From Acidobacteriota bacterium (GTDB lineage: Bacteria; Acidobacteriota; Vicinamibacteria; Vicinamibacterales; UBA8438): a stretch of 36,856 nt of DNA. The DNA lies in NCBI GenBank assembly GCA_022562495.1, contig JADFPE010000011.1, positions 1-36,856 of the forward strand. Direction: 5' to 3'. Shown here one piece after another: positions 1-36,856 of the stretch (the stretch's first letter is position 1; each line of letters begins with the position of its first letter). The notes under the pieces were generated by a model that was given only the letters and a program-made list of their open reading frames with translations, searched no databases and was not told the origin of the DNA. Both the position numbers and the translations under genes were made by a program.

Positions 1-220
1 GGAGCACGCCGTTTCAGATGAGGAAGTCTGGTGCCACGAAGTAGAGCTTCGCGAACATGCTCCGGGCGTGGCATCCTGCAAAAGTCGGCGTTGATCCATT
101 CGTCACAGGAATCGCATACTGCCGGTACACCCTACGTCGCGCCGTGCCATGGCCAGACGCGGCAATGAGGACGACACCGGAACACTTGTCCAGGCATCTC
201 TCTCACTCGGAACACGAATC

Positions 221-1582
221 ATGATCATCACCAAGAAAGCGCTGCCGCGGCGGACGTTCCTGCGCGGCATGGGTGCCACGATGGCCCTTCCGCTCCTCGA
301 TGCGATGGTGCCGGCCGCGACCGCCCTCGCGCAGACCGTCGCCAACCCGACACTGCGTCTCGGCTTCATCTACGTGCCGAACGGCGTCATCCAGGATCAG
401 TGGGTGCCGACCGCGACCGGTCGGGGCTTCGACTTCTCGCCGATTCTGAGCCCACTCGAGCCGTTCCGCGAGCAGGTATTGGTGTTGAGCGGCCTGGCGC
501 ATCGGCAGGCCGACTCGTTCGGCGACGGCAACGGCGACCACCCGCGCGCCACCGCGGTGTGGTTGAGCGGCGTGCACGCATGGGAGCGTCGCGGTCGTCA
601 GGGTCCGACCGACATCAAGCTCGGGATTACGGCCGATCAGATCGCGGCGCGTGCGCTCGGCACGCAGACCCCGCTGCCGTCGCTCGAGCTGGTGCTCGAG
701 ACACCGACGGCGATCGCCTGCGACACCGGGGACTGTTTCTACTCGAACACGATCTCCTGGCTCGATGAGACGACACCGCTCGACATGGAGGCACACCCCC
801 GTATCGTCTTCGAGCGGCTGTTCGGCGACGGCGGCAGCGCGGCGGATCGGCTCGCCGTGATGAAACGCACCGGCAGCATCCTCGACTCGGTCACACGGGA
901 AGTCGCCCGTCTCGAGCGGACGCTCGACCCGCGCGACCGGAACAAGCTGGACGAGTATCTCACCGCCGTCCGCGACGTCGAGGAGCGGATCCAGCGCTCA
1001 GAATCACGAGACGTGGAGTCGATCATCGAGCTGCCCGAACGGCCGGTCGATATTCCGGAGACGTTCGACGAGCACGCGATGCTCATGTTCGACCTCCAGA
1101 CGCTCGCCTTCCAGGCCGACATCACGCGGGTCTTCACGCTGATGATGGCCCGCGAAGCCAGCCCGAGGACCTATCCGGACATCGGGGTGCCCGACCAGCA
1201 TCACACCATGTCGCATCACCGGAACGATCCGGAGTACATGGCCAAGAAGGCGAAGATCGACACCTATCACATCCACCTGCTCGCCCGCTTCCTGGAGAAG
1301 CTGCGGAACACGCCGGACGGCGACGGCAACCTGCTCGACCACTCGATGATCGTCTACGGCGGTGGCATCGGGAACGGCAACCTGCACGAGCACACCAACT
1401 TGCCGTGTCTGGTGGCCGGGGGGGGCGGCGGCCGGCTCAAGGGCGGGCGTCACCTCGCCTACCCGGAAGACACGCAGATGGCGAACCTGCTACTCACCGT
1501 CCTCGACAAGGCGGGGGTGCAGGCGGAGCAACTCGGCGACAGCAGTGGCCTGCTGAACACCGGGACGCTCGCCGACGTGTAG
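221..1582 (+). CDS. DUF1552 domain-containing exported protein
   Basis: ORF 149-1582 with likely start ATG 221 (MIITKKALPRRTFLRGMGATMALPLLDAMVPAATALAQ, Tat-like RRTFLRG signal); DUF1552-type body (FIYVPNGV, GHADQHHTMSHH-like, DHSMIVYGGGIGNGNLHEHTNLPCLVAGGGGGRLKGGRH). Confidence 0.85.
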   Translation: MIITKKALPRRTFLRGMGATMALPLLDAMVPAATALAQTVANPTLRLGFIYVPNGVIQDQWVPTATGRGFDFSPILSPLEPFREQVLVLSGLAHRQADSFGDGNGDHPRATAVWLSGVHAWERRGRQGPTDIKLGITADQIAARALGTQTPLPSLELVLETPTAIACDTGDCFYSNTISWLDETTPLDMEAHPRIVFERLFGDGGSAADRLAVMKRTGSILDSVTREVARLERTLDPRDRNKLDEYLTAVRDVEERIQRSESRDVESIIELPERPVDIPETFDEHAMLMFDLQTLAFQADITRVFTLMMAREASPRTYPDIGVPDQHHTMSHHRNDPEYMAKKAKIDTYHIHLLARFLEKLRNTPDGDGNLLDHSMIVYGGGIGNGNLHEHTNLPCLVAGGGGGRLKGGRHLAYPEDTQMANLLLTVLDKAGVQAEQLGDSSGLLNTGTLADV

Positions 1583-1594
1583 TGGAATGGCCCG

Positions 1595-1768
1595 CCCCGG
1601 GTAACACGGGCCTTCAGGCCCATCGTCACAAGGCTGCTGCGCCCCGGTAGCACGGGCCTTCAGGCCCGTCGTCCCAAGGCTGCGTCCCGGTAGCGGGCCT
1701 TCAGACCGGTCGTCCCAAGGCTGCTGCGCCCCGGTAACAAGGGCCTTCAGGCCCGTCGTCCCAATGGT
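1595..1768. repeat. Four tandem ~44-bp imperfect copies of a GGGCCTTCAGGCCC palindromic repeat
   Basis: Copies at ~1595-1641, 1641-1684, 1685-1728, 1729-1768, consensus ccccggtaacacGGGCCTTCAGGCCCgtcgtcccaaggctgctgcg; each contains a GC-rich palindrome. Confidence 0.9.
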
Positions 1769-1872
1769 GTGTCCGGTGCTGATCGCATGCGATGAGCACG
1801 ACCGGCAGGCCAGCAGCCGCTGCTGACGATGTCGTGATCTCTCGAGGCCGCGCCCAGCCAACGCGGTCGTCC

Positions 1873-1892
1873 AGCCCCCGCGTAGCGGGGCT
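1873..1892. repeat. Dispersed hairpin repeat AGCCCCCGCGTAGCGGGGCT (copy 1)
   Basis: agcccccgcgtagcggggctgtgaga here and agcccccgcgtagcggggctgtaaga at 27155-27180. Confidence 0.8.
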
Positions 1893-1904
1893 GTGAGACA
1901 CGCT

Positions 1905-1933
1905 CGTCTAGCGAGGCGGAGCCTCGCTAGACG
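1905..1933. terminator. Perfect 13-bp stem hairpin between convergent genes, probable bidirectional terminator
   Basis: cgtctagcgaggc (1905-1917) gga gcctcgctagacg (1921-1933); the stem overlaps the stop codon of the minus-strand DUF1552 gene. Confidence 0.6.
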
Positions 1934-3270
1934 GTGAGGCGATCGAGCGGGCCCGTGCTGTCGCCGAAGGTTTCGACGGGAACCCCCAGCTTCTCCAGAA
2001 TCGTGACCCACAGGTTCGCCAGCGGCGTCCCCTTGGGGTAGCGGACGTAGCGGCCGCCTGTGATCCCGGCTTTCGTGCCACCGACCAATGCAATTGGCAG
2101 GTCGTCATAGAAATGCGTGTTGCTGTCGCTGATGCCGGTGCCATACAGGAGCAGCGTGTGGTCGAGCATCGTGCCGTCGCCTTCAGGCAACGCGGCCAGC
2201 TTCTCGACCAGATACGCAAACTGCTGGCAATGGTATTCGTTGATCTTGTGCAATCGCTCGAGCTTCGCGGGCTCATCCTGGTGGTGCGACAGCGGATGAT
2301 GCGAATCTGAGACGCCGACTTCCGGATATGCGCGGCCGCTGATCTCACGCGCGAGCATGAACGTGCTGATGCGGGTCAGATCGGTCTGATAGGCGAGCGC
2401 CAGCAGATCCATCATGAGCTTCGCATGCTCGCCGTAGTCGCTCGGCACCCCCACCGGCTGATTGACCACCGGGAGCTCCTGCGAATTTTGTCGCTCGGCC
2501 ATCTGGATGCGCCGTTCGATATCGCGCACCGCCTCGAGATACTCGTCGAGCTTGGCCCGGTCGCTCGACCCGATGACCTGCCCGAGCCCCTTCAGGGCGT
2601 CGCCGACGCTATCCAGAATGCTGCGGTCCCGGCGCATGCGGGCCAGCCGCGCCTCGGGATCGGTGCTGCCGGTCGTGCCGAACAGGAGCTCGAACACGGC
2701 GCGCGGGTCGTTCTCGATCGGAAGCGGCGTTGTCGGCGTACGCCAGGCGATTGTGTTCGTGTACGCGCAGCTTGCGCCACCGCACGAGCCCAGCATCGCG
2801 TTCGACTCGATGCCAAGCTCGAGTGAGGCCAGCTGTGTTTCCTTCGACAGCTCGCGCGCGGCGATCTGGTCCATCGAGACCTCGGCATACACGTCGGCGC
2901 CGTTGGTGGCCTTGAACGGCACACCGGTCAGGAAGGTGCCGGCAGCGCGGGCGTGGGCCCCCCCGCCCTTGACGAGGCTCGCCGCCTCGTCGTCGAGGCC
3001 GCCACACATCAGGATGTTGTCCTTGAACGCGCTCAACGACCGCAGCGTGGGCGGCAGCTCTGCGAGCGGCCCCTCGGTCTTCGGAGACCAGTAGGGCATC
3101 GACATCCCGTTGGGGACGTAAAAGATCCCAAACCGGCGGACCGGTGCCGCGGCGGTCTTGCTGAGGGCGGTCAGCGCCGGGACCATGCCGTCGAGTAGCG
3201 GTAACGCAATGGTCGCCCCGAGACCGCGCAAGACGGTGCGGCGTGGCAGATGCATCTTGCTGATGAACAT
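1927..3270 (-). CDS. DUF1552 domain-containing exported protein (second paralog)
   Basis: Likely start MFISKMHLPRRTVLRGLGATIALPLLDGMVPALTALSK; strong similarity to the 221-1582 product (FYVPNGM, DSHHPLSHH, LLYGTGISDSNTHFYDDLPIALVGG). Confidence 0.85.
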   Translation of the reverse strand: MFISKMHLPRRTVLRGLGATIALPLLDGMVPALTALSKTAAAPVRRFGIFYVPNGMSMPYWSPKTEGPLAELPPTLRSLSAFKDNILMCGGLDDEAASLVKGGGAHARAAGTFLTGVPFKATNGADVYAEVSMDQIAARELSKETQLASLELGIESNAMLGSCGGASCAYTNTIAWRTPTTPLPIENDPRAVFELLFGTTGSTDPEARLARMRRDRSILDSVGDALKGLGQVIGSSDRAKLDEYLEAVRDIERRIQMAERQNSQELPVVNQPVGVPSDYGEHAKLMMDLLALAYQTDLTRISTFMLAREISGRAYPEVGVSDSHHPLSHHQDEPAKLERLHKINEYHCQQFAYLVEKLAALPEGDGTMLDHTLLLYGTGISDSNTHFYDDLPIALVGGTKAGITGGRYVRYPKGTPLANLWVTILEKLGVPVETFGDSTGPLDRLTV

Positions 3271-3331
3271 GCCCAATCTCCTCTGTCCCCTGCGTGCGAC
3301 GCGCGACCTGTGGACGCGCGCCACTACGCGC

Positions 3332-5809
3332 CTATGGCTGTTGCGCGACCGCGGTCAGCGGCGCCGTCTCGCCCGCGCCCGGTGTGCGCTGCAACCGGAA
3401 CGGATCGCTCGCGACGATGTGCTGCAGGAGCGACGACCACCGGTAGTCGTCGCGTGCCACGTCGCGCACGATCTGCCGGATGGCCGGCGCGTCATAGTAC
3501 GCCACGCCGCGCCCCAGCGCGTAGGTGAGCAGCTTCTCGGTGACGGTCCTGATGAACGCGCCGTGGCCCTCACGCAGCAACGCCTCTCGAAACGCGCGCG
3601 GGCTGTCGATGGTCTCGCCCGACAGGCTGATGGTGGCATCAATGGCAGCCCTCCCGTCGGTCTCGCGCCATCGCCCGATCGCGTCGAAGTGTTCTAGCGC
3701 GAACCCCAGCGGATCCATGCGGCGATGGCAGCTTGCGCAGACGGGGCTGCGCCGGTGCGCCTCCATGCGCTCGCGCAGCGACGTCGGACTGCTCGCGTCG
3801 GCCTCCTCGAGCGGCGGCACATTGGCCGGCGGCGGCGGCGGCGGCGCGCCGAGCAGCGCCTCCAGCACCCATTTCCCGCGCAGCACGACCGACGTGCGAT
3901 TGGCATAGGACGTCACCGTCAGGAGACTCGCGTGCCCCAGCAGACCGTGGCGCCGGTCGTCGGTCCACGTCACCCGCCGAAAATGGCTGCCGTAGACGTC
4001 GTCCACCTCGTAGTGCCGGGCCAGCTGCTCGTTCAGGTAGGTGTAGTCGGCTCGCAACAGCTCCGGGATGGGCCGATCCTCCCGCACCTGACTCTCGAAG
4101 AACAGCTCCGTCTCGCTGACCATCGCCTTGCGCAGCGTGTCGTTGAACCCGGCAAAGAGGTTCCCGTCCGGATCCTGCGCGTGGATGTTGCGCATCTGCA
4201 GCCACTGCCCGACGAAATCGTTCATGAACCGCGTGGCGCGCCGATCGGCGAGCATGCGTCGCACCTGCCCGGCCACGACCGCGGGATCACTCAGCCGGTT
4301 GCGCGCGGCGAGATCGAGGAGTTGGTCATCGGGGATGCTTCTCCAGAGGAAGAACGAGAGCCGCGACGCCAACTCCAGATCGCTCAATCGGTACACGGTG
4401 CCTGGCGGCGAATCGACGGGCTGGGCTTCGACGCGGAGGAGGAACTGCGGCATCGCGAGCAGCGTTTCCAGCGCGCGCTCGATCCCCGCATCGAAGTCTT
4501 GGTCGGTGCGGCCCTCCCGATAGGTGTCGAGCAGCGCATCGACTTCCGCGTCAGTGACACCCCGTCGATAGGCGCGCCGCGCCAGCGAGGTGAGGATCTC
4601 GCGCGCGCACGCCTCCTCGGCCTCGTCGCTGCTATCGCTCGGGTAGCAGGTGAAGATCTGTCGCCGACTCGGGGTCTCCGTCGGTACCGTGCCATCGAAC
4701 GGGCCCGAGATAGTGAGCATGTCGACGCCGGGCAGATCGCTCACCGTGGCGGGCGACGGGGCGGCATCGGTGAACGCGACCGACACGAGTCGCGTGCCCG
4801 CCTCGAGCGGCACGCGCAGCTCCAGCTCGTCGTCGGCGGTCATCCGATACTCGTGAAGCCGCTGGCCCTCGACATCGCCCTCGCGCACCGCGACCAATTG
4901 CCCGGGGTCGGGTCCCGGGTACATGCCGCCGATGTCGAACGTCTTGACGAGGGCGCGGTCGACACGCACCTCGATGCGATGCGCGCTTTCCCCGATGCCC
5001 TCAATCGCCTGGGTCGTCCCGTTCCGCTTGAGGCGGATCGCGAAGACATAGTCGCCGTCGAGCGGAAAATGGTGGCGCACGGCCAGGCCGCCGTGGGTCG
5101 CGAACGGCATGTCCTCGTTCAGTCGGACGTCGCGCCGTTCGAACCCGGTCCGGTACACCTGCATGACCGGGCGGTTGTCGGGACTGCCGACCGCCGCGCG
5201 ACTGATCTTCGTGGCCGCGGTGATATACCGGGCCATCAGCGCCGGCGTGATCGAGAGCACCTCGGCGTTGTTGTCGAACCCGAAGCCGGCCATGTCGCTG
5301 GGCAGCAACGCCGTGCCGTCGATTTCCAGCGCGAGCAAATCTTCGATGGCATTGACGTATTCGACGCGATTCATCCGGTGCGCGACGACCCGTCCAGGGT
5401 TGGGGTCGGCCGCGGCCACCCGGTCGAGCGCCGTCTCGAGCGACGTGGCGAAGGCATCGATGGTCGACGCATCGGGTCGGGGCCGACCCTCCGGCGGCAT
5501 CTGCCCGCTGCGGAGCTTCTGCACGACCTTTTCCAGCATCTCGGCGTTCGCGGCGACCTGCTCGATGTCGAGCTGGTCGAGCAGGAGGCCGGCGGTCTGC
5601 AGCCGCTCGTTGTGGCAGGTCACGCAGTATCGATCGAAGAGCTCGCGTGACGGGGGTTGGGCCGCCGGAGCCGCCGCTTCCGTGCGCTGCGACGATCGGT
5701 TCGCCGCTGGCGCGCCCGCGGCCTGGACCTGGGCGAGTTGCAGAGACACGCCTCCGGCCACCGCGAGTCCAACCAGTCCGGCCGTGCTCAATATCGTCGG
5801 CATGTACAT
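3332..5809 (-). CDS. DUF1592/DUF1588/DUF1587/DUF1595/DUF1585-type cytochrome c-like protein
   Basis: Two CXXCH motifs (RYCVTCHNERL, CASCHRRMDPLGFALEHFDAIGRWR), N-terminal signal, DUF1592-family motifs (RLSFFLWRSIPDDQLLDLAARNRL); next to a DUF1552 gene on the same strand. Confidence 0.85.
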   Translation of the reverse strand: MYMPTILSTAGLVGLAVAGGVSLQLAQVQAAGAPAANRSSQRTEAAAPAAQPPSRELFDRYCVTCHNERLQTAGLLLDQLDIEQVAANAEMLEKVVQKLRSGQMPPEGRPRPDASTIDAFATSLETALDRVAAADPNPGRVVAHRMNRVEYVNAIEDLLALEIDGTALLPSDMAGFGFDNNAEVLSITPALMARYITAATKISRAAVGSPDNRPVMQVYRTGFERRDVRLNEDMPFATHGGLAVRHHFPLDGDYVFAIRLKRNGTTQAIEGIGESAHRIEVRVDRALVKTFDIGGMYPGPDPGQLVAVREGDVEGQRLHEYRMTADDELELRVPLEAGTRLVSVAFTDAAPSPATVSDLPGVDMLTISGPFDGTVPTETPSRRQIFTCYPSDSSDEAEEACAREILTSLARRAYRRGVTDAEVDALLDTYREGRTDQDFDAGIERALETLLAMPQFLLRVEAQPVDSPPGTVYRLSDLELASRLSFFLWRSIPDDQLLDLAARNRLSDPAVVAGQVRRMLADRRATRFMNDFVGQWLQMRNIHAQDPDGNLFAGFNDTLRKAMVSETELFFESQVREDRPIPELLRADYTYLNEQLARHYEVDDVYGSHFRRVTWTDDRRHGLLGHASLLTVTSYANRTSVVLRGKWVLEALLGAPPPPPPANVPPLEEADASSPTSLRERMEAHRRSPVCASCHRRMDPLGFALEHFDAIGRWRETDGRAAIDATISLSGETIDSPRAFREALLREGHGAFIRTVTEKLLTYALGRGVAYYDAPAIRQIVRDVARDDYRWSSLLQHIVASDPFRLQRTPGAGETAPLTAVAQQP

Positions 5810-11339: not shown

Positions 11340-11381
11340 CCAGGTAAGCGATGATGCGTGTGCTTCGACACGGGGGAAGAG

Positions 11382-12419
11382 ATGAGCCTACGCGATCGCG
11401 CGGTTGTCTCGGTGCTGCTGGTCGTGTGCGTGTCTTCCGCCGGTGCGCAGACCCCGTTCGAACCTCCGCGTCTACCCGATGGCAGGCCCGATCTCCAGGG
11501 GGTCTGGGACTTCCGCACGCTGACGCCGCTCCAGAGACCCGAGGATCTGGCGGACACGGCGGTATTGACGGCTGAAGAGGCTGCCGAGGTCGAATCGCAG
11601 GCCGCCGCGCGCACCGCCGAGGCGAACGCTCCAAGCGAGGTGCGGACAGAACCGTTACCGGTCGGCGGCAGCATCGGCGCCTACAACCGCTACTGGGTCG
11701 ACCAGGGCGCAAGGGTCGTCGACGACCAGCGGACGTCGCTCATCGTGGACCCGCCCGATGGACGCCTCCCGGCGCTACAGCCCGGCATCGAGATGGACGT
11801 GCTGTCGCTCGGCGAGGACCTGCCGGGTGTCCGTCCGGTGCGCGTCCGTGCGGCTGGGATCGGCGCCGACAGCCACGAGGACCGAGGTCTCTCCGAGCGG
11901 TGTCTCCTCGGATTCAACTCCGGCCCGCCGATTGTGCCCGCCGGCTACAACCAGAACATTCAGATCTTTCAGACGCCGGACCATGTCGTCATACTCCATG
12001 AAATGGTGCACGACGCGCGCATCGTGCCGCTGACGTTAGCTGGGCGCAACCCGCTGCCAGGCAGTATCCGACAGTGGATGGGCAGTTCGCGCGGCTACTG
12101 GGACGGTGATACGCTGGTGGTCGAGACGAGGAATTTTACCGACAAAATCGCCAGCTTCAACCCGTCGGTGACGACGGCAGCCGGCTCCGGCACCACCTTG
12201 CATCTGACCGAGCGCTTCCGTCGCGTGGGCGATGACACCCTGCTCTACACGTACACGGTCGAGGATGCTATGACCTTTACGCGGCCGTTTACGGCGGCCT
12301 TGCCGATGAAGCGAGGCGACGCAATGTTCGAGTACGCGTGCCACGAGGGAAACTACGGACTGTTCAACATGCTGTCAGGGGCGCGGGCCGCAGAGGCGGC
12401 GTCGGCGTCCGGGCAGTAG
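11382..12419 (+). CDS. Exported hypothetical protein, DGxPDLQGVW family
   Basis: MSLRDRAVVSVLLVVCVSSAGAQTPFEPPRLPDGRPDLQGVWDF...; co-linear similarity with 21951-22952. Confidence 0.75.
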   Translation: MSLRDRAVVSVLLVVCVSSAGAQTPFEPPRLPDGRPDLQGVWDFRTLTPLQRPEDLADTAVLTAEEAAEVESQAAARTAEANAPSEVRTEPLPVGGSIGAYNRYWVDQGARVVDDQRTSLIVDPPDGRLPALQPGIEMDVLSLGEDLPGVRPVRVRAAGIGADSHEDRGLSERCLLGFNSGPPIVPAGYNQNIQIFQTPDHVVILHEMVHDARIVPLTLAGRNPLPGSIRQWMGSSRGYWDGDTLVVETRNFTDKIASFNPSVTTAAGSGTTLHLTERFRRVGDDTLLYTYTVEDAMTFTRPFTAALPMKRGDAMFEYACHEGNYGLFNMLSGARAAEAASASGQ

Positions 12420-18658: not shown

Positions 18659-20035
18659 ATGACCCATCGCGTGATGACCCGCCAGATTCGGACACTCGTG
18701 CGGTGTCTCGCGCTTGCCGCATCCGTGTTGTGGACGGCACCGGCGGCGTTTGCGCACGACTGGCCCGAGTGGCGTGGCGCCGGCCGCGCCGGCGTGTGGG
18801 CCGACACCGGGATCGTGCAAGAGCTTCCGGCCGAGTTGAAGGTGAAGTGGCGGGTGCCGATCAACTCGGGGTTTTCCGGTCCCGCTGTCGCCGATGGCCG
18901 GGTGTTCATCACCGACTGGGCACAGGATCCGGCGTCTCGGACGATGGACGGGACCGAGCGGGCGATCGCGCTCGACGAGGACAGCGGCGAGATCTTGTGG
19001 ATCCGCGAATGGCCGACGTCCTATCGCATGCTGATGCAGTCGTACGCGATCGGGCCCCGGGCGACGCCAACGGTCAATGGAGACCGGGTGTATGTGGTGG
19101 GCGCGGCGGGCGATCTGTACTGCCTGGCCGTCGAGACCGGGGAGGTCATCTGGGAGAAGCACTACCTTACCGACTTCGACAGCTTCGTCCCGACCTGGGG
19201 TGTCGCGAGCTCTCCGATCATCGACGGCGACCGGCTGATCACGGTCGTCGGCGGGGAACCGGGCGGGTTGATCATGGCGTTCGACAAGCGGACCGGAGCC
19301 GAGGTCTGGCGGGCACTCGACGTGGTCGGCGAGATGGGTTACGGCCAGCCGATCATCATCGAGGCCGGTGGCGCGCGGCAGCTGATCGTGTGGCACGCGG
19401 CGGCGCTGGTGTCGCTCAACCCGGTCAGTGGCGAGGTCTACTGGGAGGAAGTGTGGGACGCGAGGGGCGGCATGTCGGTGGCCACCCCGGTGCACAGCGG
19501 GAACTACCTGCTGGTCACGCAGTTCTATCTCGGCTCGATGATGATGCAGCTCGACCAGGACCGGCCCGGCGCGACGATGCTCTGGAAAGGCCAGAGCCGC
19601 AGCGAGATGCCGGACCAGACCGACGGCCTGCACGCGCTGATCACCACGCCGCTGATCGAGGGTGACTACATCTACGGCGTCGGCAGCTACGGCGAGCTGC
19701 GGGGGCTGAACGCGCGCACCGGCGAACGGCTGTGGATGAGCGACGAGATGGTCGCGCAGGCACGCTGGGGTGCGGCGTTCATGGTCAAACAGGGCGACCG
19801 GTACTTGGTCGTCAACGACGACGGGTTCCTCATCAATGCCCAGTTCACACCAGAGGGCTATGTCGAGCACGGACGTACCCGGCTCATCGAGCCGACCAGC
19901 AATGCGGGGTACGGGCCTCGCAAAGCCTTCGATCGGCTGGTGAACTGGTCGCACCCGGCGTACGCCAACGGACACATCTTCCACCGGAACGACAACGAGA
20001 TCATCCGCGCGTCTCTGCGGGCGTCGGATTATTAG
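18659..20035 (+). CDS. PQQ-binding-like beta-propeller exported protein
   Basis: AGGAGG RBS at 18645-18650; MTHRVMTRQIRTLVRCLALAASVLWTAPAAFAHDWPEWRG; paralog of 13544-14908. Confidence 0.85.
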   Translation: MTHRVMTRQIRTLVRCLALAASVLWTAPAAFAHDWPEWRGAGRAGVWADTGIVQELPAELKVKWRVPINSGFSGPAVADGRVFITDWAQDPASRTMDGTERAIALDEDSGEILWIREWPTSYRMLMQSYAIGPRATPTVNGDRVYVVGAAGDLYCLAVETGEVIWEKHYLTDFDSFVPTWGVASSPIIDGDRLITVVGGEPGGLIMAFDKRTGAEVWRALDVVGEMGYGQPIIIEAGGARQLIVWHAAALVSLNPVSGEVYWEEVWDARGGMSVATPVHSGNYLLVTQFYLGSMMMQLDQDRPGATMLWKGQSRSEMPDQTDGLHALITTPLIEGDYIYGVGSYGELRGLNARTGERLWMSDEMVAQARWGAAFMVKQGDRYLVVNDDGFLINAQFTPEGYVEHGRTRLIEPTSNAGYGPRKAFDRLVNWSHPAYANGHIFHRNDNEIIRASLRASDY

Positions 20036-20147: not shown

Positions 20148-21947
20148 ATGACGGCCAAGCAGGGACACTCGCGGCGTGACTTCGTGAAGCAGGTCGGGGC
20201 AGCGGCCGGCGCGCTGGCCGTGTCGCCCACCGCGGTCGGGGCGGGCACGCAGCAGTCCCCGGTCGAAGTCCCGGAGGACACACCCCGGTCGGTGTTTCCC
20301 ACGCTGAATCGACGGACCCGCGGATGGCTGCGGTTTCTGTGGGACAAGACGACGACGGATGACGACTGGAGCTCGACCGGGGTGCCACACCAGTGGTGGG
20401 ACCGCTACTCCGTCCCGGTCGTGCTCAGCTACGGGCGGTTCGACCTGTCGTTTTCCTCCTACGCACTGCTGCTCATGGCAGACCAGACGCCGGCGTGGCG
20501 CGAGGTCTACACGCAGATTGCCGACGGGCTGGCCAGCCGCTATCCGACCTACTGGGGCGCGATCGACTGGCTGACACAGATTGGCGACGACCCGAAGCGG
20601 GAGAACTATCCACCCCGGGTCATGGGGGGCATCCCCGAGCGGTTGCGCGGGAACTACAACCGGTTCGGCTGGACCGCGAACGGCGTCGAACCCTGGGGAC
20701 TGCAGCCCGACCCTATTGGCGCCGACGGCTACCTCTTTTTTCGCGGCTGGTTCACCCTGCTGCTCTCGATCTACAAGTACGTCTCGGGCGACGACAAGTA
20801 CACCCGGCCGTTCCCGGTGACCGGCTACGGGGACCAGATGTTCGAGTGGGACCACCATCGCATCGCCGAGCAGATGGCGCGACAGTATCAGGCGCATCCG
20901 GAGGGACCGCAGTGCGAGAACACCAAGATCTGGTTCTACTGCAACAGCGCCGGCGGTCTCGGCATGTATCTCTACGACCGGGTGTTCGGCAAACAGACAC
21001 ACCGCGCCTTCCAGAACTTCCTGGAGTATGCCCGAGAGCACTACATGGGCGTCTCGAGCGACGGCAAGCTGGAGTGGATCACCAACTACTACGATCCGAT
21101 CGTCGAGTACAAGGCGAACGGTGGTCCTGGGAGCGGCGCCGCAACCGCGTTCATGGTGCTGCCGCAGAACCGCGAGCTGGCGACGACCATCTACGAGGCC
21201 GCGGCCAACGCGCTGGGCTGGAGCGATCCACAGGTGCCGATTCGCGCGAACGCCACCGGTCTGCTCCTGGCCCGCGCGCTGGGCGACCACACGGCGGTCG
21301 CCCGGCTGCGCGCCGCGGCTGAACGGGAGTACGACCCTCGCTTCTTCGGCGCGCACGACGAGAAGTTCGGCTGGTTTTTCCGGTTGAACGAGGCGTATCC
21401 GCGGGGGCAGCGGAGCGCGACCATGATGGTGTCCGAGGTCGGAAACGACGGTGACTGGATTCGGGCGTTCGAGGCGCCGTACCTGGACAAGTTCGAGGCG
21501 CCGACCGTCGAGGGCATCGACTTTCCCTCGCTCGGGCTGTATCAGGCGTGGAACGACACCGAGAGCGGGACCCTCTATGTCGGCACCTACCCCACGACCC
21601 CCGACCGACGCGGCATCGAGACGACCTGGCGCGTGACCACGCTCCCGAACACGGAGGACGTCTTCATCCTCTGCGACGGCGAGCCGTTCGAGCGGTTCGA
21701 GGTGACCGGCGACGGCACCATCCGGCTCGACACCACCATCGACACCCGGCAGTACCAGATCTTCACCGGGTATCGGGGCCCAGGAGGGCCGCCGACCGCC
21801 CGCCGGGGGCAGCCGCAGGATGGGCGTACGGCCGCTGGACTGGCCGCTGCCCGGCGACCGGCAGACCCCAACCAGACCGGCGCCCACCGCGCAAACCGCC
21901 AGCTTGTACAGGGCGATGCGCCGACCTGTCCCTGCTGCCCGGCGTAG
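20148..21947 (+). CDS. Tat-exported protein with linalool dehydratase/isomerase-like (alpha/alpha barrel) core
   Basis: Twin-arginine leader SRRDFVKQVGAAAGALAV. Segment RGWFTLLLSIYKYVSGDDKY...QCENTKIWFYCNSAGGLGMYLYDRVFGKQTHRAFQNFLEYAREHY resembles the recalled Castellaniella linalool dehydratase/isomerase segment [21 protein letters not shown]...[41 protein letters not shown], including identical C-to-C spacing. Confidence 0.6.
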   Translation: MTAKQGHSRRDFVKQVGAAAGALAVSPTAVGAGTQQSPVEVPEDTPRSVFPTLNRRTRGWLRFLWDKTTTDDDWSSTGVPHQWWDRYSVPVVLSYGRFDLSFSSYALLLMADQTPAWREVYTQIADGLASRYPTYWGAIDWLTQIGDDPKRENYPPRVMGGIPERLRGNYNRFGWTANGVEPWGLQPDPIGADGYLFFRGWFTLLLSIYKYVSGDDKYTRPFPVTGYGDQMFEWDHHRIAEQMARQYQAHPEGPQCENTKIWFYCNSAGGLGMYLYDRVFGKQTHRAFQNFLEYAREHYMGVSSDGKLEWITNYYDPIVEYKANGGPGSGAATAFMVLPQNRELATTIYEAAANALGWSDPQVPIRANATGLLLARALGDHTAVARLRAAAEREYDPRFFGAHDEKFGWFFRLNEAYPRGQRSATMMVSEVGNDGDWIRAFEAPYLDKFEAPTVEGIDFPSLGLYQAWNDTESGTLYVGTYPTTPDRRGIETTWRVTTLPNTEDVFILCDGEPFERFEVTGDGTIRLDTTIDTRQYQIFTGYRGPGGPPTARRGQPQDGRTAAGLAAARRPADPNQTGAHRANRQLVQGDAPTCPCCPA

Positions 21948-21950
21948 CAG

Positions 21951-22952
21951 CTATTGCGGCTCCGCGGCCGCCGCCTCCTCGGCACGAGCACCGGAGAGAA
22001 TGCCGGCTATCGCGTAATTCCCTTCGTGGCACGCGTACTCGAATATCGGCTCGTCCGAGTGCTTCAACGGAATCATGAGGGTCCAGGGCTGGGTCCAGGT
22101 GGCCGGGTCGTCGAAGGTGACCACATACTCGATGATGTCTGGCGCGACCCGGGTGAATCGCTCGACGACCCGGACGTTGTCGGTGGCACCGCGGTAGCTG
22201 CCGCGGCTCGAATAGTTGGTCGTTTCCACCACCAGCGTGTCTCCGTCCCAATGCCCGCGTGAGTCGCCGTGCAGCTGGCGCACCGTGGCATCCAGATGTG
22301 GCGAGTCGTCGATCGGGATGACACGCGCGTCGTGGATCAGCTCCTGCATGACGACGACGTGGTCGACCGACTGAAAGATCTGGAAGTAGCTGTTGTACCC
22401 GGCCAACAGATTCGGCACGCCATAGGAGATGCAGCGGTCCAGCAGGCTGCGGCGCTCGTGACTATCCGTCCGCTGCCCGACGGGCCGCGGCTGGTTGCGG
22501 CGCCGCTCGCGCGCCTCCTCCGTGACCGGCGGAATGCGTCCGTTCGGCGGGTCGGTAATCAAGGACGTCCGGTTGTCGAGCTCACGCTCGACCAGCCAGA
22601 ACGAGTTGTAGTTCCCGGTCCCGGCATCGAACTCCCGGAAGTTCGGGTCCTCCAGCACCTGTTGAAACAGGAGGGGACCGAGGAGATTGCCCGCCTGTTC
22701 GTTCGCGTGCAGCTTGGCCGCGCGGGCCTGATACACCGCCAGTTCCTCGTCGGTCAATCTGTCCTTTCCCTCGAACGCCGCAGGGCGCTCCATCGGCGTC
22801 GCCGAGTTGTTCGTCCAGACGCCCTGGAGATCTGGCTGGCCGTCGGCGGTGCGCGGCACCGTCCAGTTCTCCTGAGCCGACACCGTTCCCTGCGCCAGGC
22901 AGACCACCGCCGCAATACTGATCACGAGCCGGCACGGCACTCGACGTCTCAT
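21951..22952 (-). CDS. Exported hypothetical protein, DGxPDLQGVW family (paralog of 11382-12419)
   Basis: Signal peptide; TADGQPDLQGVWTNNS, GYNSYFQIFQSVDHVVVMQELIHDARVIP, GHWDGDTLVVETTNYS, FEYACHEGNYAIAGILSGARAEE. Confidence 0.75.
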   Translation of the reverse strand: MRRRVPCRLVISIAAVVCLAQGTVSAQENWTVPRTADGQPDLQGVWTNNSATPMERPAAFEGKDRLTDEELAVYQARAAKLHANEQAGNLLGPLLFQQVLEDPNFREFDAGTGNYNSFWLVERELDNRTSLITDPPNGRIPPVTEEARERRRNQPRPVGQRTDSHERRSLLDRCISYGVPNLLAGYNSYFQIFQSVDHVVVMQELIHDARVIPIDDSPHLDATVRQLHGDSRGHWDGDTLVVETTNYSSRGSYRGATDNVRVVERFTRVAPDIIEYVVTFDDPATWTQPWTLMIPLKHSDEPIFEYACHEGNYAIAGILSGARAEEAAAAEPQ

Positions 22953-34460: not shown

Positions 34461-35471
34461 GTGTTTGGCAGCCAGCTATACTTTGAATCGGTGCCCATCA
34501 AATCAGTTCCATCCCGGCTGCGTCGACCACCGCCGCGTGTGTGTCCTGGGCCGGTGACGCGGTGTCTGCTGGGTGTGGTCCTGTTGTCTGGCGTGATGAC
34601 GGGGGCGGAGCGTCCGTCGGCGAACGCGCAGGCTCAGACGGTGGAACGTCGCCTGTACGTCAGTGTGCTCGTAGACTCCGGCTCCCCGCTTCAGGGTCTC
34701 CGCGACGGCGATTTCTTCATCAGAGAAGATGGCATCGATCGAGAGGTGCTTCGCGCCGGCCCCGCGACGGCGCCGATGCAGATCGATATTCTGGTCGACA
34801 CCAGCGCGGCGGCGCGGCCGATCATAGGGGACCTCCGTCGCGCGCTCGAGAGCTTTGTCGAGGAGTTGCACGAGGGCAACCAAATCGCCGTGATCACCTT
34901 TGGCGGCACGCGCTACGTCCTGGTTCAACCGACAACCAGTCTCGACAGGCTGAAGTCTGGCATGTCGAAGCTCTTCAGTCGTCCCGATACGGCAACCTAT
35001 CTCGTGAACGCGCTGAACGACACGGCGAGCGGGTTCGAGCAGCGCGAGGCACTGCGCCCGGTCGTGGTTGTCGTGACGACGAACGGCGTCGATTTCAGCG
35101 AACAGGACCCCCAATCGGTCGTGACGCGACTGCGCGCCGCCGGCGCGGTCGTTCACGCCGTGATCATGCGTACGTCCAGGGTGCGGATGAACTTTACCGG
35201 CACCTTCGGGCTGGCAGTGTTTCCGTCGTGGGCGAGTCGCGCGCGGGATCTCATGCTGGACATCGGACCGGAGCAGACCGGCGGACACCGCTTCGATCTC
35301 TCGACCGTGAACGGGCTCGGGGAAGTGCTAGCACGGCTTGCCTTCGAGCTGTCCAACCAGTATCTGGTCGTCTACGCCGGCGCCAGGAGCCTGCTCCCGC
35401 CCCAGGTCCAGGTCGCTGTGAACAGCAGCGAGCCGGTCACCGTGCGTGCGGTGCCGGCGAGGTTTCGGTAG
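34461..35471 (+). CDS. VWFA-related (TIGR03436-like) exported protein
   Basis: RRLYVSVLVDSGSPLQGLRDGDFFIREDGIDREVL...IDILVDTSAAARPIIGDLRRALESFVEEL...VVVVTTNGVDFSEQDP. Start may be a downstream codon near 34494. Confidence 0.75.
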   Translation: MFGSQLYFESVPIKSVPSRLRRPPPRVCPGPVTRCLLGVVLLSGVMTGAERPSANAQAQTVERRLYVSVLVDSGSPLQGLRDGDFFIREDGIDREVLRAGPATAPMQIDILVDTSAAARPIIGDLRRALESFVEELHEGNQIAVITFGGTRYVLVQPTTSLDRLKSGMSKLFSRPDTATYLVNALNDTASGFEQREALRPVVVVVTTNGVDFSEQDPQSVVTRLRAAGAVVHAVIMRTSRVRMNFTGTFGLAVFPSWASRARDLMLDIGPEQTGGHRFDLSTVNGLGEVLARLAFELSNQYLVVYAGARSLLPPQVQVAVNSSEPVTVRAVPARFR

Positions 35472-35485
35472 ATCGGAGCGATACC

Positions 35486-36598
35486 GTGTCCCGAATCAGA
35501 CTCATCTCTGTGTCGTGTGTCCTCCTCGCTGCGTTGGCGGCAACGCTGTCGCTCCCTTCAGCGGCGAGAGCGCAGATGAGCGCCAGGATCCACGGGGTGG
35601 TGACCGACTCCGACGGCGAGCCGGTGCCGGATGCAACCATCGTGGTGGAGTTCCAGGGGGGGGTAGCTCGGAAATTCGAGTTGACCACGAACGACGAGGG
35701 GGAGTTCATCCAGATGGGGCTGCAGCGTGGTCCCTACAGCGTCTCGGTCGTCAAGGAGGGGGTTGGCGCCCTCAACGGCACCGTCACCCTCCGGGCGGGT
35801 GAGTCCTTCGAGATGAACATGGAGCTGTTGTCACCCGGCGAGGTGATCAGGGAGAGCCTGTCGGAGGCGCAGCTGGCGGAGCTCGAGGCGGCCGAAGCCA
35901 CCACCGACGCATTCAACCGTGGTCTCGCCGCGGCCCGCAGTGGCAACCTCGACGAGGCGGCGACGCTGCTCACCAGTGCGCTCGACGCCGTACCCGCGTG
36001 TGCGGAGTGCCAGCGCAACCTCGGCATCGTTTATACCCAGATGGCGGAGTACGCGCAGGCCGAGACCGCCTTCAAGGCGGCGCTCGCGTTGCAGCCGGAC
36101 AACGCGGCGTCGTACGTCGGACTGGCCGAGATCTATAACGCGCAGCGGCGGTTCGCTGATGCGGCCGAGGCCAGCGCCGCGGCGGTCAGGCTCTCGGGCG
36201 CCGCCGCCGGGGGCGGTGGTTTCCTGTTCTCGTCTCTGATTCGCGGTGGAGTGCGGGGAGTGAGGGGCACTCGTGACCTGTTGGCGAGGGTGCGGAAGCT
36301 GCCGGCGAAGCGCGCCGAGGTCCGGGCGCACCCACACGCCTTTCGCCGGACGCTAGCGACCGAGCTCGTCCGGGCGGGCGTGAGTCTGCCGGCGGTCCAG
36401 AAGATCCTCGGCCACGCGCAGCTGACCATGACCGCCGACTACGTCGACGTCCGGCAGGGCGAGATGCGAGTGGGCCTCGAGGTGTTTGCGCGCGATCGGC
36501 CCGAGTGCCAGGCTGGGGGCGATGGTCGTCTGGCTGCTACTGGCCTAGCTGGCGAGCAATGTCGGCTCTTCCCTGGAGTGCAACTCCTGGCGGGGTAG
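35486..36598 (+). CDS. Exported carboxypeptidase-regulatory-like + TPR protein, C-terminus fused to a tyrosine-recombinase fragment
   Basis: GTG start, signal peptide ...LAALAATLSLPSAARAQ; RIHGVVTDSDGEPVPDATIVVEFQGG; TPRs (ECQRNLGIVYTQMAEYAQAETAFKAALALQPDNA); then HPHAFRRTLATELVRAGVSLPAVQKILGHAQLTMTADYVDV. Confidence 0.75.
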   Translation: MSRIRLISVSCVLLAALAATLSLPSAARAQMSARIHGVVTDSDGEPVPDATIVVEFQGGVARKFELTTNDEGEFIQMGLQRGPYSVSVVKEGVGALNGTVTLRAGESFEMNMELLSPGEVIRESLSEAQLAELEAAEATTDAFNRGLAAARSGNLDEAATLLTSALDAVPACAECQRNLGIVYTQMAEYAQAETAFKAALALQPDNAASYVGLAEIYNAQRRFADAAEASAAAVRLSGAAAGGGGFLFSSLIRGGVRGVRGTRDLLARVRKLPAKRAEVRAHPHAFRRTLATELVRAGVSLPAVQKILGHAQLTMTADYVDVRQGEMRVGLEVFARDRPECQAGGDGRLAATGLAGEQCRLFPGVQLLAG

Positions 36599-36670
36599 CG
36601 GCTTCGAGTCGTTTCGCGCGTTTGCGATACAAGACAGATTGAATCGTGTAGTTAGTTCCGTAACGAGCTG

Positions 36671-36812
36671 CGCCGGTTGGGTAACCGATATTGATGCCCG
36701 GACCCTCTGCAAGTGGGTCGGGTGAATCTGGTCAGGTGCGAAAGCAAGCAGCCATAAGCTTTGTCCTGCTGTGCCGGAGGAAAATCTGGGTTGAGTCGGC
36801 TGCCCGCCGGCG
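36671..36812 (+). ncRNA. ffs: Signal recognition particle RNA (4.5S-like)
   Basis: Core GGTCAGGTGCGAAAGCAAGCAGCC (36730-36753) with GAAA tetraloop, then TGTGCCGG (36770-36777), as in SRP RNA. Flanking arms pair: CGCCGG/CCGGCG, GGG/CCC, CCGAT/GTCGG, CCCGGA/TCTGGG, CCTC/GAGG. Exact ends uncertain. Confidence 0.88.
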
Positions 36813-36856
36813 TGGTGTTACGGACTAGACGGGTGTGCGTTGCAAATCATGCAATC

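Follow-up and report, generated by a model that had tools for sequence, protein, structure and literature searches.

Linalool dehydratase/isomerases (LDI; EC 4.2.1.127 / 5.4.4.4) add, remove or shift a water-derived hydroxyl group on small oily alcohols and have attracted interest as a route from alcohols to alkenes. In the window, i.e. the complete stretch of 36,856 nucleotides from an acidobacterial MAG that was analysed here, one gene (20148..21947, + strand, ATG start, 599 aa) encodes a protein that an initial annotation likened to LDI on account of its cysteines. The locus raises the question whether an LDI-type enzyme is encoded here and what chemistry it may perform with a changed active site. 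In the open literature, no paper joins linalool dehydratase with Acidobacteria and none names the Pfam family PF18566.

Fold and family membership

The Pfam Ldi model (PF18566), against which the initial annotation had proposed a search, matches the protein with 57.7 bits (curated cut-off 26.1; E=1.8e-15; profile positions 66-287 of 318). In the PDB, LDI structures were matched weakly by the single sequence (E 0.02) and at E 1.7e-10 by a profile of nine family sequences; hhalign against a three-member Ldi profile (LDI and two strong Ldi relatives) gave 99.4% and E 4.9e-22 over columns 43-534. The resemblance to LDI exceeds by far what chance would give, at an identity of ~15%. The LDI sequence that the initial annotation had quoted agrees with PDB 5hlr, and the RGWFTLLLSIYKYVSGDDKY segment to which it drew attention is present in the window protein.

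The AlphaFold model, built with 30 family sequences, has a pTM of 0.81 and a mean pLDDT of 80 (core mostly >90). When it was compared with the PDB by Foldseek, LDI entries took all of the first 27 places (E from about 2e-10 to 4e-9; rmsd 5-6 Å; TM-score by target between 0.63 and 0.73). The two findings that would have spoken against an LDI-like protein, absence of an LDI match and a fold other than an alpha/alpha barrel, did not occur. Secondary structure, pLDDT (mostly >90), Foldseek and hhalign together delimit an LDI-like (alpha/alpha)-barrel domain at residues ~55-450 (20310..21497, +), followed by a C-terminal beta-sandwich of eight strands in the model (residues 453-539; 21504..21764, +). 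The sandwich is apparently common to two canonical Ldi relatives, L052 from the same phylum and L057 from Nocardioides immobilis, and is absent from the LDI of Castellaniella defragrans; it therefore seems to be an old feature that was lost in the latter. Together with the C-x-C-C tail described below, it adds to what the initial annotation had described.

The order of barrel and beta-sandwich is shared with GH127 enzymes, which use a Cys nucleophile beside zinc and have catalytic and zinc-bound Cys. The window protein might thus be a Cys-dependent enzyme of the glycoside type, its likeness to LDI being ancestral only. Next after LDI in the Foldseek ranking are indeed the (alpha/alpha) barrels of GH127, GH9 and GH76, led by the GH127 member HypBA1 (E 3e-5), at far weaker scores. 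The TM-score to GH127 is ~0.2 as opposed to 0.63-0.73 to LDI, no Pfam glycosidase family is matched, and the Cys spacing is exactly that of LDI. This explanation is quite unlikely.

The leader carries the twin-arginine motif SRRDFVK at residues 8-14 (20169..20189, +), and the NCBIfam model TAT_signal_seq (TIGR01409) scores 22 bits (cut-off 16.7), in agreement with the RR-type Tat leader recognized at the outset. Nearly all acidobacterial orthologues have SRRxF or TRRxF at this place. By score and fold, the window protein is a member of Pfam Ldi; within the LDI superfamily it represents a distinct, outlying branch whose active site is changed.

An invariant Cys pair in a changed active site

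The active-site residues of LDI are H128, Y44, D38, C179 and C170 (PMC12455561). In the window protein, the profile and hhalign alignments both place the Cys pair of the segment CENTKIWFYC (residues 256-265; 20913..20942, +) on C170/C179. The CE-x7-C spacing, which had been the starting point of the initial annotation, is present, and C256 and C265 are invariant in 31/31 aligned members; the pair is kept down to 44% identity in Acidobacteria, Gemmatimonadetes, Pseudomonadota, Actinomycetota and Chloroflexota. As judged from the alignment to C170/C179, the two cysteines probably lie in one pocket.

The position of the catalytic His128 is occupied by Trp201 (20748..20750, +). The RGW/KGH alignment is ungapped, as the initial annotation had read it, and all subfamily members have Trp or Phe here. 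The strong Ldi match L057 (292.6 bits) also has Phe at this position (GFH); therefore, the Cys pair, not the His, is the constant of the family. For the other two residues, hhalign pairs Asp66 and Asp72 (20343..20363, +) with D38 and Y44 of LDI, at lower local confidence, so that this part of the alignment is uncertain; D72 is invariant among family members, and D66 is mostly Asp/Glu. D99/Y105, a pair of equal spacing, was considered for D38/Y44 and rejected, as hhalign puts F98/Y105 on Y65/Y72 of LDI.

These residues bear on the possibility that the protein is a true periplasmic monoterpenoid enzyme, either a linalool/geraniol isomerase or a myrcene hydratase, comparable to LDI of C. defragrans or to the linalool isomerase Lis of Thauera linaloolentis, the residue changes being neutral. 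The LDI fold and the Cys pair would suit such an enzyme, and L057 demonstrates that members of the Pfam family can lack His128. Against this stand the replacement of H128 and, by alignment, of Y44 throughout the subfamily, the extra domain and tail of the window protein, and the absence of recognizable monoterpene pathway genes in the window. Linalool activity is putative at most; one of the active-site features tested, His128, is lost, and a true linalool enzyme is unlikely.

C-terminal tail, genomic neighbours and distribution

The beta-sandwich is followed by a disordered, poorly conserved linker (residues 546-593; 21783..21926, +; pLDDT <50 from 554), in which the mean majority-residue fraction is 0.40 as compared to 0.76 in the core. 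At its end, the alignment of C-termini reveals a C-x-C-C tip (C594/C596/C597; 21927..21938, +) in 27/27 of the aligned C-termini long enough to include it. Among the 954 ORFs of the examined loci, all that end in CxCC are LDI-like, which argues against chance or a sorting tag as the origin of the tail. The tip also occurs in Tat-bearing gammaproteobacterial copies (L068, L069) and in Tat-less Porticoccaceae and proteobacterial copies (L046, L051); because the latter keep it, it is not a purely periplasmic adaptation. It is missing in the actinobacterial (Nocardioides, G885) and Ktedonospora copies. On the tree, the tail label needs four changes; two rows whose C-terminus is not readable (L012, L013) inflate this number. 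Literature matches to CXCC mostly concern other contexts, e.g. metal chaperones.

Swinging arms are known from SoxY and from the tail of class I ribonucleotide reductase. The strict conservation of the tip on an unconserved linker could accordingly mean that the tail is the working part of an exported metal-scavenging or thiol-carrier protein for which the barrel is a scaffold. Yet the actinobacterial and Ktedonospora members keep barrel and Cys pair without the tail; the barrel therefore has a function of its own, and a mere scaffold role is improbable. Most likely, the tip is a mobile thiol (or metal-holding) arm.

The gene upstream encodes a PQQ_2/BamB-like propeller of 458 aa (18659..20035, +; PF13360 1.6e-34), which ends 112 bp before the LDI-like gene on the same strand. 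Its position is as the initial annotation had described, and the two proteins could form one functional unit, e.g. in an alcohol oxidation step; the genome encodes PqqC, and the adjacency, when its conservation was checked as had been proposed, recurs in four other genomes (L031, L032, L033, L038). Most orthologues, however, have other neighbours, the window genome contains ~71 PQQ_2 stretches, and the propeller has only two Cys in all (C16, C155) and no vicinal pair. Among named families, those that it matches best are of BamB type, or its scores fall far short of the cut-offs of PQQ-dehydrogenases: for PQQ-dependent alcohol dehydrogenase, TIGR03075 gives 51 bits against a cut-off of 480. The functional link is weak, and a common unit with the propeller is very unlikely.

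Downstream, a convergent gene (21951..22952, -) encodes an exported protein starting with PDLQGVW, which lacks a Pfam match and occupies the same place in L031 and L038. It is one of two window members (the other at 11358-12419) of an exported acidobacterial family; copies are also found near the LDI-like genes of L035, L041, L042, L049, L073, L074, L077 and L080, and the family may simply be abundant. Elsewhere in the window, two DUF1552 (HXXSHH) proteins are clustered with a PSD/planctomycete cytochrome c protein at 149-5809, all of them exported and uncharacterised. A single ORF at 34541-36598 has matches to CarboxypepD_reg, TPR and, terminally, phage integrase, possibly a fusion or a frameshift read-through, and positions 36618-36836 hold a signal recognition particle RNA of the bacterial large type (Rfam RF01854, 90.7 bits; gathering 60).

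Orthologues were found in 26-27 genomes of the order and class of the window genome, all within two families; any Ldi match at all occurs in five of 396 genomes drawn across the phylum. The acidobacterial orthologues have no constant neighbour gene. In the Actinomycetota (Nocardioides L047, G885 L070 and the Streptomyces plasmid L082), an alpha/beta-hydrolase, a partner of ~200 aa and the LDI-like gene lie tightly together, with only weak similarity between the hydrolases of Streptomyces and Nocardioides. The partner genes (L046:7321-7962, L051:4989-5588, L047:7391-7954, L070:10008-10568, L082:11336-11953), whose hosts are Actinomycetota and Gammaproteobacteria, are directly upstream of, and often overlap, Tat-less LDI-like genes; L046 and L051 also belong to this group. 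The partner is lacking in all seven acidobacterial genomes tested and in both of the Tat-bearing gammaproteobacterial ones. Where searched, it has no Pfam or convincing NCBIfam family, and its model (pLDDT 48.5) renders structure matches meaningless; an SCP2-like identity, proposed by eye, was discarded for lack of a family match and in view of weak PDB matches. Two forms of the LDI-like protein appear to exist, one exported and free-standing, the other Tat-less and with the partner; Ktedonospora has neither. Related copies sit with alpha/beta-hydrolase, acyl-CoA dehydrogenase, MaoC and SDR genes.

Three genomes (G133, G134, G135) each carry two diverged LDI-like paralogues, ~65% and 70% identical to the copy in the window, which suggests subfunctions; the second paralogue of G134 is fragmented. 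The sequence CALQBJ020000191.1 (L039), titled ‘Bifidobacterium breve’, carries an acidobacterial LDI-like gene and matches the order relative G020; the title looks wrong.

Proposed function and comparison with known systems

The best reading, with a probability of roughly one half, is that of a hydro-lyase/isomerase that works in the periplasm on a hydrophobic alkenol, depends on thiols and carries a mobile arm with thiols or metal. The protein would act in the following manner: It folds in the cytoplasm, is exported through the Tat pathway and acts in the periplasm, where it may perform LDI-type acid-base chemistry on a hydrophobic unsaturated alcohol or a related lipid. C256 and C265 would handle protons while a hydroxyl group is removed, added or shifted. 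Because His128 is replaced by Trp/Phe and Tyr44 apparently by Asp, carboxylates, presumably the conserved D72, D66 and E257 in place of His and Tyr, probably act as the other acid/base, and the substrate and exact reaction probably differ from those of linalool/myrcene; a terpenoid or alkenol substrate is putative. The C-x-C-C tip on its flexible linker may maintain C256 and C265 in their reduced state in the periplasm or, alternatively, may bind metal. Export by Tat in the folded state, combined with such an arm, would be one means of preserving reduced thiols beyond the cytoplasm. A thiol-protecting tail is plausible because Lis needs a reductant and LDI is described as oxygen-sensitive (PMC4791888). 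A more far-reaching version, possible if doubtful, is an undescribed Tat-exported branch of the LDI superfamily: a hydro-lyase/isomerase of a non-terpene hydrophobic substrate that lacks the active-site His and whose C-x-C-C arm swings in for redox self-repair or metal delivery.

A widespread subfamily in which the His and apparently the Tyr are replaced and the Cys pair is invariant is a natural experiment on the residues that the chemistry needs, and the conserved CxCC arm makes it possible to test directly how a thiol enzyme that is sensitive to oxygen could survive outside the cytoplasm.

The closest characterized system is LDI/LinD of C. defragrans (PDB 5HLR/5G1U/5I3T, PF18566), with which the window protein shares the alpha/alpha-barrel, the position of the CE-x7-C pair and periplasmic export; it differs in the residues at His128 and, apparently, Tyr44, in the added beta-sandwich and CxCC tail, and possibly in the Tat type of its leader. 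According to PMC4791888, LDI and Lis were the sole representatives of the linalool/geraniol-isomerase class. In Lis of T. linaloolentis 47Lol, the Ldi-type domain is part of a protein of 644 aa, which becomes active only on reduction by dithionite, DTT or Fe(II) and whose UV-VIS spectra reveal no cofactor (PMC4791888). By description, the catalytic domain of Lis is cytosolic, and four transmembrane helices lie in its N-terminal part (PMC4791888), in contrast to the Tat-exported window protein. The canonical relatives L052 and L057 share the Cys pair, the Glu after the first Cys and the apparent C-terminal beta domain, but they match Pfam Ldi with ~290 bits as opposed to 57.7; L052 retains SGH at the His position, where the window protein has Trp, and neither a Tat leader nor a CxCC tail, both present in the window protein, is seen in the two.
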